A stretch of DNA of 64,000 bases from Planctomycetales bacterium (GTDB lineage: Bacteria; 4484-113): NCBI GenBank assembly GCA_030606285.1, contig JAUWGS010000003.1, positions 62,001 through 126,000 of the forward strand, read 5' to 3'. Made by a program: the position numbers and the translations under genes. The notes beneath the pieces were generated by a model, which was given only the letters and a program-made list of their open reading frames with translations, searched no databases and was not told the origin of the DNA. Below are positions 27,639-30,834 of the stretch, piece by piece (positions within the stretch are counted from its first letter, which is position 1; the number at the start of each line of letters is the position of its first letter).

Positions 27639-27887
27639 TTGTATCATCCCGACTTCGCGCAGCTCCTCGAACATCTACGGCACTCAATAAAAGACTTCGC
27701 GCTGTTTGAAGCTGTCTACCTGACGGGGCTACCGCTGCGCGATCTGGCCAGGATGATTGGTGTAACGGAACGAAGCCTGCGCCGTCGGTTGCGATCAGTA
27801 AGAAAAGCTGTCTCCAAGAGCATTGGTGGACCCGATGAGATCGAACGTCACGACAACCTCATTGTCGCTCGTGATTATTTCGAATAG
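27639..27887 (+). CDS. Small helix-turn-helix protein divergent from the S24 repressor
   Basis: An 82-residue protein. Residues about 25-60 form a sigma-region-4-like HTH (AVYLTGLPLRDLARMIGVTE followed by RSLRRRLRSVRKAV). It is too short to be a sigma factor. The TTG start at 27639 follows AGGAGG by 9 bases. Its divergent position and shared operators with the repressor recall a cI/cII-like switch, but no phage genes follow. Its 3' end overlaps the convergent ispF fusion gene by 13 bases. Confidence 0.65.
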   Translation: MYHPDFAQLLEHLRHSIKDFALFEAVYLTGLPLRDLARMIGVTERSLRRRLRSVRKAVSKSIGGPDEIERHDNLIVARDYFE

Positions 27888-28861
27888 TCGTCAAGCAGGC
27901 GATTAGCCGTCTTGTCTGCCACTTGGTTTTCTTCACGAGGCACCAGCTTCAGTCTCAGATTGTTGAAGGATTTAAGTTCTCCTAGTATTTCTCGCGCCAG
28001 CTCCCTCAGCCGTGCGTCTTTGATGCGATACCTGCCTATAAGCTGGTTGAACACGAGACTCGAATCAAGGCAAATCACGATTTCGGCATCTCGTAGGTCC
28101 CGCTCTGAGAGCAACGACAGCCCAAAGCGCACACCCTCGTATTCCGCAACGTTGTTGGTGGTCGTGCCCAGATACCTCGCGTCCGAGAACAGCACTTCGC
28201 CGCCCGCGTTTCGGCAGACCGCAGCGGCTGCGGCAGGTCCGGGGTTGCCTCTGCTGCCACCGTCAACATTCACTACGATAGCTCCTCGTGGTATCTCGCC
28301 CACATGCTCCAGCGGGAACTTGCTCTCAAACACTTCGTCGCTGATTGAGCTCTTCCTGCCGGACTCCGCACTAGTGATGATGCCCATAACGATGACTGTC
28401 GCTGCAATCGCCTCACCTTCGCCGATTGTACCCAGTCCCTCGCAAGTGCGAGCCTTAACTGATACGTCCGATTCAGAAAGCCCTACCAGCTCGCCTATCC
28501 TCTCTCGCATCGCACCATAGTGCGCGGATAGTAGCGGCAACTCCGCAAGTATCGTCACGTCGACCTGTTCCAACTCCAGTCCCCGCTCCGTCAGTCTTTC
28601 CTTCACTGCGGCCACGAGTTCACTGCTGGGCCTGCCCGCGAAACGCGGATCCTTGGCGGGAAAGAGTATTCCGATGTCCGGTTCGCCGGCAGCCGCTAGT
28701 GCTGCGTCCGAAAGCGCGTGCAGAACCACGTCGCCGTCGGTCTCCGAGACCAGCCCGAAATCGCACTCAATTCTCACGCCGCCCAGCATCAACGGCGCGC
28801 CCCGTTTTGTGCGGTGTATGTCAAATCCGGTACCAATCCGCCTTCGTATCTGTCTAGTCAT
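27875..28861 (-). CDS. ispF: IspF (MECDP synthase) fused to an RNase HI domain
   Basis: A 328-residue fusion. Residues 5-162 are IspF: FDIH with metal ligands D14 and H16, DGDVVLHAL with H48, and VSVKARTCEGLGTIGEGEAI. This makes the cyclodiphosphate intermediate of the MEP pathway. Residues 190-328 are an RNase HI domain: NVDGGSRGNPG with D200, E240 (NNVAEYEG), D266 (CLDSSLV) and D316 (ENQVADKTANR), so all four acidic catalytic residues are present. H34 of E. coli IspF, near the substrate, appears replaced by Glu. It overlaps ispD by 8 bases. The two activities have no obvious common pathway. Confidence 0.85.
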   Translation of the reverse strand: MTRQIRRRIGTGFDIHRTKRGAPLMLGGVRIECDFGLVSETDGDVVLHALSDAALAAAGEPDIGILFPAKDPRFAGRPSSELVAAVKERLTERGLELEQVDVTILAELPLLSAHYGAMRERIGELVGLSESDVSVKARTCEGLGTIGEGEAIAATVIVMGIITSAESGRKSSISDEVFESKFPLEHVGEIPRGAIVVNVDGGSRGNPGPAAAAAVCRNAGGEVLFSDARYLGTTTNNVAEYEGVRFGLSLLSERDLRDAEIVICLDSSLVFNQLIGRYRIKDARLRELAREILGELKSFNNLRLKLVPREENQVADKTANRLLDDYSK

Positions 28862-29576
28862 ACTTCATCGCATCCAGGTAAGATTCAACTATGTTGACAT
28901 CCACGGCGAACGCCACCTTAACATTACTCCGCTCTCCGGGCACGGTCACCAGGTTGTAGCCACCTGCAACGAAAACGCTTCCGTCATCGGTGTGCTGATC
29001 GGTGCGCGACTGCACTCTCTCGAGTGCCGCGCGGTACTCCTCGGTGAAGAACGCCTGAGGAGTCTGTGCCAGCAGGATCTGATTTCGCGGAAGGTAGCCG
29101 ATCGTACGTCGTGCATGGTCCTCCTGAACAACCGAGTCGGCCGGGCTCATCACGGGCACCACGCCAACGCCTGGCTTCAGCGCGTCAAGGACTCGACGAT
29201 ACAGCAAGGCTGTAGCGAGCGGACGGTCGCCATCATGTATCATTACGCACCGCCCCGTGGCGTGTTTCAGGCCACACCTAACCGACGCAGCTCGGCTGTC
29301 GCCCCCCTCACAGACCACAACCTGATCCACTGACCGCGCGTTCGCTCTTTTTATATCGGAGACTAACCCATCCGCCTGCCGCCTGATGCTAGGATGACAC
29401 ACTACCACGAGTTCATCCACGAACTCCAGCGATAACGCTGTCTCCAGTGGATACGCGATGAGCGGTTTCCTCTTCACGTTTGCCAGAAGTTTCGGAGCGC
29501 CCGTGCCAAAGCGTCTGCCGGTGCCGCCTGCGAGAAGAATCACGCTGACTTCGCACTCTCTTCGCCGATCCTCCAC
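28854..29576 (-). CDS. ispD: 2-C-methyl-D-erythritol 4-phosphate cytidylyltransferase
   Basis: A 240-residue MEP-pathway enzyme that makes CDP-methylerythritol. Visible: LLAGGTGRRFGTGAPK nucleotide-binding loop, a VMIHDGDRPLA core, RNQILLAQTPQAF and GERSNVKVAFAVD. DGDRP replaces the usual DAARP. It starts at a GTG 3 bases after the PIN-TRAM gene stop and overlaps ispF by 8 bases. Gene order PIN-TRAM, ispD, ispF is known from several phyla. Confidence 0.9.
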   Translation of the reverse strand: MEDRRRECEVSVILLAGGTGRRFGTGAPKLLANVKRKPLIAYPLETALSLEFVDELVVVCHPSIRRQADGLVSDIKRANARSVDQVVVCEGGDSRAASVRCGLKHATGRCVMIHDGDRPLATALLYRRVLDALKPGVGVVPVMSPADSVVQEDHARRTIGYLPRNQILLAQTPQAFFTEEYRAALERVQSRTDQHTDDGSVFVAGGYNLVTVPGERSNVKVAFAVDVNIVESYLDAMKYD

Positions 29577-29579
29577 CGA

Positions 29580-30761
29580 TCACACCTGGCTTTTCAACAC
29601 TTTGCGGACCCGTCCAAAAATCAGCCTTCCAGCCACGGTCTGCATGATTGAGGTCACTTCTACTTCACATACGCTGCCAATGTGACGCATCCCCTGTTCA
29701 ACAACAACCATCGTGCCGTCATCGAGATAACCCACGCCCTGTCCCGTCTCTTTGCCCTCACGGATTACACTGACCACCAGCGTCTCACCGGGTATGACCA
29801 TCGGCTTCACCGCGTTGGCCAACTCGTTGATGTTCAGGACGCGGATGTCTCTGATACCTGCGACACGGTTGAGATTGTAGTCGTTCGTGACAACTTCACC
29901 GCCCAGTTCTTCTGCAATCAACATCAGCCTTTCGTCGACCGCTACATGGTCATGGTCGTACTTGCTGTCATCATAGATATGCACCGGGTTTGGCGCATTC
30001 TCCTGCAGGTTCTTGAGGATCTCCAGTCCCCGTCGGCCCTTATTCCGTTTGATCTGGTCGGAAGAATCCGCGATCAGTTGCATCTCTCTGATTACGGAGT
30101 TGGGGACAACGAGCAGCCCGGGGATGAAGCCACTGCGCACAATCTCTGTGATCCGCCCGTCTATTATCACTGAAGTATCCAGTAGTCTGGGCTTCGTGTC
30201 CAATTCGTAGAGCGACAGGATCGACTCACGGCTGCTTGTTGGGTAGAAGATGTTCGTCGTAATGAAACCGCCGATGTAACCGAAGCTGAGCAACACCAAC
30301 GCGTTCAGCAGCACCATCACGAACTCGGAGTTCCAGAAACCCTTCGACAGGCTGTTAAGATAGAAGAAAAGCGGAACATTCAGCAGGAAGAACGAAACCA
30401 GCACTCCACCCAGAAAACCCATCGCGCCTGCGATGAAGCGTTGACGAGTGACTCCTTTGAGTAGCCTCTGTACTGAACCACTCAGCGCTACGAGGCCCAT
30501 CTCGATAAACGGCGTCATCAAGTAGCCCAGCACTATAAACGCGATGATTACATAGCTGTTGAATCTGTCCAGCGATTCCAGGAAGTCGGCAACGCCTTCA
30601 CCCTCCAGGAATACTGGAGGGATCGAAGTGGCATATTCGCGCAGTATCCCTTCCCACGCACGGACTGACGGCTCGAACAGACTCGAGGAGTAGAGCGCGA
30701 TCGCAAACCCCACAAGGCCGCCCAGCAGAGCGGAGAAGACCCTGGCAACAAATCCTCTCAT
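29580..30761 (-). CDS. PIN-TRAM membrane protein (YacL-like)
   Basis: A 393-residue protein with an N-terminal set of membrane helices (residues about 1-150), a PIN nuclease domain (LLDTSVIIDGRI, VVPNSVIREMQLIA, DERLMLIAEELGG, VVTNDYNLNRVA; acidic residues kept) and a C-terminal TRAM domain (GETLVVSVIREGKETGQGVG). This is the family that often precedes ispD. A cleaved RNA is likely but the target is unknown. The ATG at 30761 follows TTGGCA-N18-TATACT by 7 bases, so leaderless; the frame extends upstream, but that part would be promoter. Confidence 0.88.
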   Translation of the reverse strand: MRGFVARVFSALLGGLVGFAIALYSSSLFEPSVRAWEGILREYATSIPPVFLEGEGVADFLESLDRFNSYVIIAFIVLGYLMTPFIEMGLVALSGSVQRLLKGVTRQRFIAGAMGFLGGVLVSFFLLNVPLFFYLNSLSKGFWNSEFVMVLLNALVLLSFGYIGGFITTNIFYPTSSRESILSLYELDTKPRLLDTSVIIDGRITEIVRSGFIPGLLVVPNSVIREMQLIADSSDQIKRNKGRRGLEILKNLQENAPNPVHIYDDSKYDHDHVAVDERLMLIAEELGGEVVTNDYNLNRVAGIRDIRVLNINELANAVKPMVIPGETLVVSVIREGKETGQGVGYLDDGTMVVVEQGMRHIGSVCEVEVTSIMQTVAGRLIFGRVRKVLKSQV

Positions 30762-30768
30762 CCCACAA

Positions 30769-30798
30769 AGTATATACCCTTTAACATTTGCCTGCCAA
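30769..30798 (-). promoter_or_regulatory. Promoter of the PIN-TRAM - ispD - ispF operon
   Basis: Minus strand: TTGGCA (30793-30798), 18-base spacer, TATACT (30769-30774), then 7 bases to the ATG at 30761. A leaderless start is likely. Confidence 0.55.
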
Positions 30799-30834
30799 AC
30801 TCCGCACACCTGAAGCTCCCACACATCCTTACGG

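Follow-up and report, generated by a model that had tools for sequence, protein, structure and literature searches.

An isoprenoid enzyme and an RNase HI in one frame

Why is an enzyme of isoprenoid synthesis joined to an RNase HI, which removes RNA from RNA-DNA hybrids, and does either part depend on the other? This question is raised by one gene in the window analyzed here, a stretch of 64,000 nucleotides from a Planctomycetales bacterium (contig JAUWGS010000003.1, positions 62,001 to 126,000), the relevant features of which are listed in Table 1. The phylum of the window genome (G000) was sampled as 10 genomes, G000 to G009. An earlier note on this DNA had proposed that a single frame encodes IspF and a complete RNase HI, and this is borne out by the 328-residue frame with its Pfam and NCBIfam matches. 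In the AlphaFold2 model of the fusion (mean pLDDT of 85.7), both domains are well predicted and part of the linker is weak; the pTM of 0.50 means that the model does not tell how the domains are placed relative to each other. The 50 Foldseek matches listed for this model were all solved IspF or IspDF chains.

Two observations concern the ends of the gene. On the plus strand, a short open frame (window 27639-27887) shares 13 bases with the 3' end of the fusion gene and has a subthreshold match to sigma-70 region 4 (20.1 bits; cut-off, 25.7); a similar frame in G001 (L046:5835-6134) also overlaps the end of the fusion gene. In G007, no ATG, GTG, or TTG is present among the first 23 codons of the fusion frame (L045:3826-3895), and either a CTG near the frame start may serve as start codon or a base may be in error.

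Table 1. Features of the fusion gene and its upstream neighbors in the window
Feature	Position	Strand	Description and evidence
IspF::RNase HI fusion gene	27875..28861	-	328 aa, ATG start, one open frame
IspF domain, residues 8-159	28385..28840	-	YgbB/IspF (PF02542) 160.6 bits at residues 8-159, cut-off 26.7; NCBIfam ispF (TIGR00151) 149.6 bits, cut-off 116.45; solved IspF matched by Foldseek with a target TM of about 0.92
Glu40-Thr41, for near-invariant His34-Ser35 of E. coli IspF	28739..28744	-	Alignment mapped through the E. coli enzyme
Linker, residues 160-194	28280..28384	-	Model confidence low at 165-182
RNase HI domain, residues 195-326, with D200, E240, D266, D316	27884..28279	-	RVT_3 (PF13456) 75.7 bits at residues 198-321, cut-off 21.6; RNase_H (PF00075) 27.0 bits, just above cut-off 25.8
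ispD, separate gene	28854..29576	-	PF01128 124.2 bits; 3' end overlaps fusion start by 8 bases
PIN-TRAM-like membrane protein gene, first of conserved trio	29580..30824	-	TRAM 20.8 bits, just below cut-off 21

Active sites of the two domains

Residues of the IspF domain were numbered via the solved E. coli enzyme. D14, H16, H48, D62, and E141, which correspond to E. coli D8, H10, H42, D56, and E135, are all present in G000; we take D8, H10, and H42 to be the metal (Zn) ligands. The earlier note had also read a substrate-side His as changed to Glu, correctly so: the equivalent of E. coli His34 is Glu40, and of 56 unfused IspF sequences, 55 have His at this position and one has Tyr. Position 35 is Ser in all 56 unfused sequences and Thr in the three members of the G000 family (G000, G001, and G002). 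Within this family, position 34 is Glu in G000 and G001 and Ala in G002, and T132 is replaced by Arg.

In mycobacterial IspF, according to the structural report (PMC2151065), the 2-phosphate is bound by the main-chain amides of the His and Ser and by the Ser hydroxyl, and the His side chain stabilizes a flexible loop. Since the phosphate contacts described there are main-chain amides and a hydroxyl, with the His side chain serving as loop stabilizer, we do not take His34-Ser35 as strictly defining IspF. Thr retains the hydroxyl, so the joint change to Glu-Thr looks tolerable.

As to the C-terminal domain, the four catalytic acids that the earlier note had listed (D200, E240, D266, and D316) are invariant in each of the 10 phylum fusions. 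No PF00075 match besides the fused domain was found in these genomes, all of which also contain RNase HII. With its active site intact, the domain is probably a working RNase HI.

Occurrence and possible origin of the fusion

The fusion, which the earlier note had proposed to look for in relatives, is encoded by a single frame in every one of the 10 phylum genomes, spread over four families, and neither a frameshift nor separation of the two genes in all close relatives was found. G000 carries a single copy. Outside the phylum, at least 3 of the 375 nonphylum genomes of a sample of 385 that includes the 10 of the phylum (G118, G254, and G381) have one match that extends over both domains without a change of frame; the DNA of these three was read as well. 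In a smaller sample, 0 of 87 nonphylum genomes had a one-frame fusion, and at none of 105 other nonphylum loci were both domains found within the stretch fetched. The three outsiders rule out that the fusion is limited to one phylum. An assembly or frame artefact, which would be allowed if one genome were read alone, has a negligible chance of being the explanation and can be ruled out, since the single frame is present in 13 genomes, one of which (G118) is 99% complete in 4 contigs. The fusion is thus rare but real. In the G381 protein (L143:4853-5824), the equivalent of IspF Asp56 is Ser and the metal ligands are intact.

The gene order PIN-TRAM, IspD, fusion is found in the window and in 9 of 9 relatives, including those in which IspD and IspF have decayed (see below). 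We use the PIN name for the product of the first gene as a presumption, based on a weak NCBIfam match. Among the outsiders, G381 has the same order, and in G118 IspD adjoins the fusion and no PIN-TRAM match was found there; the G254 stretch contained neither a PIN-TRAM nor an IspD match. In G090, which is unrelated to the phylum, PIN-TRAM, ispD, ispF, a CutA-like gene, and RNase H are unfused neighbors on the same strand (L140:2979-6039), an arrangement that suggests how the join of ispF and RNase H could start. The earlier note had offered a gene-order accident as one reading; the G090 order indicates that this may describe the origin of the fusion, but it does not by itself explain its retention.

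The trees do not settle whether there was one fusion origin or several. (i) For the RNase H domain, a single fusion clade was not rejected (p-AU of 0.346) and was seen in 0% of 200 bootstrap trees; this test covered 27 of 62 rows, with 35 Actinomycetota left out, and the full 62-row tree has 105 columns and long branches. (ii) For the IspF domain, the p-AU of a single fusion clade was 0.076, and the free tree was 53.5 log units better; this tree comprised 67 rows and omitted G004 to G006 as too decayed.

Replacement of the MEP pathway in three genomes

The distribution of pathway genes divides the phylum. IspG was detected in 7 of the 10 genomes, being missing in G004, G005, and G006. IspH and Dxr were each detected in 6; they are missing in the same three genomes and, in addition, in G002 (a genome that is 77% complete) and G007, respectively. 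HMG-CoA reductase and mevalonate-diphosphate decarboxylase were found in exactly G004 to G006. These three genomes are 84 to 89% complete, so that single gene absences are weak, but the joint pattern is not. G004 also encodes a GHMP kinase that matches phosphomevalonate kinase best, with 61.2 bits, which falls short of the equivalog cut-off (165.7); the kinase gene is located about 3 kb from the fusion on the same contig, which speaks against contamination. The mevalonate pathway has replaced the MEP pathway in G004 to G006. All three pass a domain search for both ispD and ispF; such matches hence do not prove that the MEP pathway is present.

The window genome, in turn, has IspD, IspG, IspH, and Dxr and lacks HMG-CoA reductase, and a search of it for a second IspF found none. 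With no other IspF and with IspG and IspH present, the fused IspF most likely works in G000. In the MEP members in general, the fused domain is likewise probably a working IspF, as it is the sole IspF and later pathway genes are present.

Decay and constraint after the switch

The metal ligands D8/H10/H42 are E/G/R in G004, S/H/Q in G005, and Q/Q/Q in G006 and remain D/H/H in the other seven genomes. E135 is lost in all three mevalonate members and D56 in two of them. H42Q and D56G are common to G005 and G006, suggesting that the loss predates their split, and the retention of H10 in G005 and its loss in G004 and G006 fit the expectation of continuing decay after one loss. The acids of the RNase H domain are intact in all three.

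The remainder of the domain has fared differently according to the kind of position. Compared with the 56 unfused IspF sequences, 42, 40, and 35 of 47 hydrophobic core columns are retained in G004, G005, and G006, respectively, the G006 count being lowered by 10 unknown bases in its fusion gene; the hydrophobic fraction of other columns in these rows is 0.28 to 0.30. Retention of conserved polar or glycine/proline columns was 13, 9, and 7 of 26, respectively, versus 21 to 26 of 26 in the seven MEP members. The Pfam IspF profile still matches (101.6, 55.5, and 48.1 bits for G004, G005, and G006), and the AlphaFold2 model of the G005 protein, for which the input alignment included true IspF sequences, matches solved IspF with a target TM of mostly 0.77 to 0.86. 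The IspF of these three genomes is catalytically wrecked and, as profile matches and model indicate, apparently still folded.

Constraint is also visible at the codon level. Pairwise codon likelihood fits, in which branch lengths were at the bound in many rows, rejected an omega of 1 between G005 and G006 for the IspF part (LRT of 82.8) and for IspD (LRT of 155.9). The corresponding NG86 dN/dS values are 0.49 for IspF, 0.25 for IspD, and 0.16 for RNase H, and those for IspF of G004 versus G005 and G006 are 0.82 to 1.0; because synonymous sites are saturated and GC3 is high, all of these omega values are rough, though neutrality is rejected. Identity between G005 and G006 is 54% for IspF, the fastest-evolving folded region, 76% for IspD, and 85% for RNase H.

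The IspD frame is open in all three mevalonate genomes, and Pfam IspD still matches (87.1 bits in G004 and 48.7 bits in G005). Equivalog scores of the decayed IspD proteins are 72.5 and 103.8 for a cut-off of 181.3, below which the IspD of G000 also falls (156.5). The C-terminal IspD motif (K/R)YGGLGW is common to G003 to G006 (L041 to L044). In G004 to G006, its GGLGW part is conserved because the same DNA provides the fusion gene with its ribosome-binding site and start. This start-signal explanation fails in G003, where the ATG of the fusion is located about 90 bases past the IspD end motif.

Interpretation

The reading that we favor, with a probability of about 0.58, is that the fusion is a bifunctional enzyme in the MEP members and that, in the mevalonate members, a dead IspF serves as structural domain of RNase HI. 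Accordingly worded, the proposed sequence of events would be as follows. (i) ispF became joined to a nearby rnhA-type gene, giving a two-domain protein. (ii) This protein would have been passed on throughout the phylum, in which no other RNase HI was detected. (iii) In MEP members, both the IspF, which in G000 has the unusual Glu-Thr pair in its substrate loop, and the RNase HI would be active. Solved IspF domains form homotrimers (PMC2151065), so the fusion is probably a trimer as well and would display three RNase H domains. (iv) Once mevalonate had replaced MEP in G004 to G006, IspF chemistry would have been freed from selection and the metal site would have decayed. (v) The IspF fold would have been kept as a folded, probably oligomerizing N-terminal platform needed by RNase H. 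Against such a platform it can be argued that a frame must stay open by default when a needed domain lies downstream in it and that an omega below 1 could come from the avoidance of misfolding alone.

The main rival, which we consider somewhat unlikely, is that the join is a passenger fixed by drift, with IspF and RNase H acting independently. The dead IspF of the mevalonate members would then be an N-terminus that cannot be removed, because the start codon and ribosome-binding site precede it, and that must stay soluble. This would agree with the rapid evolution of the IspF part, with a variable linker (20 to 24% identity in three distant pairs and 38% between G000 and G001), and with the RNase HI-CobC fusion of Mycolicibacterium, the domains of which are reported to be functionally dissociated and the fixation of which is ascribed to probable drift (PMC7466739). 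It accords less well with the persistence of the fusion across the four families and with the retention of the IspF core while polar sites were lost. What drift explains least well is that the separate IspD is kept, at 76% identity between G005 and G006, with the pathway gone; the IspD stop and fusion start overlap in G004 to G006, which would protect the IspD frame but not its residues.

The same retention of IspD is what could point to repurposing, in which IspD and IspF of G004 to G006 would be changed enzymes or form a dedicated pseudoenzyme complex with RNase H. The open and constrained IspD frame, the surviving Pfam match, and the conserved gene order are in its favor; the decayed IspD scores far below the equivalog cut-off, though that of G000 is also below, and no partner or substrate is indicated. 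We regard this possibility as doubtful.

Quite improbable, in our view, is a regulatory role of the IspF part in MEP members, by which the binding of substrate, product, or isoprenoid would control RNase H and tie hybrid removal to isoprenoid supply. The structural report describes isoprenoid diphosphates bound in the central cavity of IspF trimers (PMC2151065), and Glu40-Thr41 is unusual, but the linker shows little conservation and was modeled with low confidence, and RNase H persists beside a dead IspF in three genomes. The suggestion of the earlier note that the fusion may link lipid synthesis to hybrid removal finds no support here, and the three mevalonate genomes argue that RNase H needs no IspF chemistry. 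Its interpretation as a whole is partly supported.

Relation to known fusions

Both RNase HI and IspF are known to occur fused to other enzymes. (i) The domain resembles IspF (2-C-methyl-D-erythritol 2,4-cyclodiphosphate synthase; PF02542, TIGR00151) in fold, active-site residues, and its status as sole copy beside other MEP genes and differs in the added C-terminal RNase HI, the Glu-Thr pair, and the loss of catalytic residues in G004 to G006. (ii) RVT_3-type RNase HI proteins (PF13456; LC11 3u3g, Rv2228c 3hst, and Halobacterium 4e19) share the domain and four acids, but the fusion has an N-terminal IspF domain and is not a free protein. (iii) The bifunctional RNase H/CobC acid phosphatases (Rv2228c and MSMEG_4305; PRK07238) likewise combine RNase HI, a variable linker, and a metabolic enzyme, but there RNase H is N-terminal and its partner CobC-like, whereas here it is C-terminal and joined to IspF; the fusion scored 110.8 bits against the 326 of PRK07238, with only the RNase H part matching (positions 4 to 134 of 378). 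(iv) Bifunctional IspDF (1w55 and 8xhu; PRK09382) is also a fusion that contains IspF, and the IspD and IspF genes are neighbors here, but IspD is a separate gene and RNase HI is the added part; the score was 163.8 bits against 417, with only the IspF part matching. The pairing of IspF with RNase H was not found in the titles and abstract starts of the open-access literature searched. IspDF fusions are mentioned in a survey that covered the MEP pathway in 4,400 species (PMC10663253); the portion of its text that was available contains no occurrence of the word "RNase".

A broader proposal, which we put forward tentatively and hold to be unlikely as it stands, is that an operon of PIN-TRAM, IspD, and IspF::RNase HI has a role in turning over RNA or hybrids. 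IspF, with IspD, would be the assembly platform of RNase HI, both having survived the mevalonate switch as pseudoenzymes, and the same particle may sense isoprenoid intermediates in MEP members.

This is a phylum whose only detected RNase HI is inseparable from an isoprenoid enzyme. Within one order, the same fused IspF occurs both in genomes that have its pathway and in genomes that lack it, a natural separation of enzyme chemistry from structural use that makes the question of why unrelated enzymes fuse testable.
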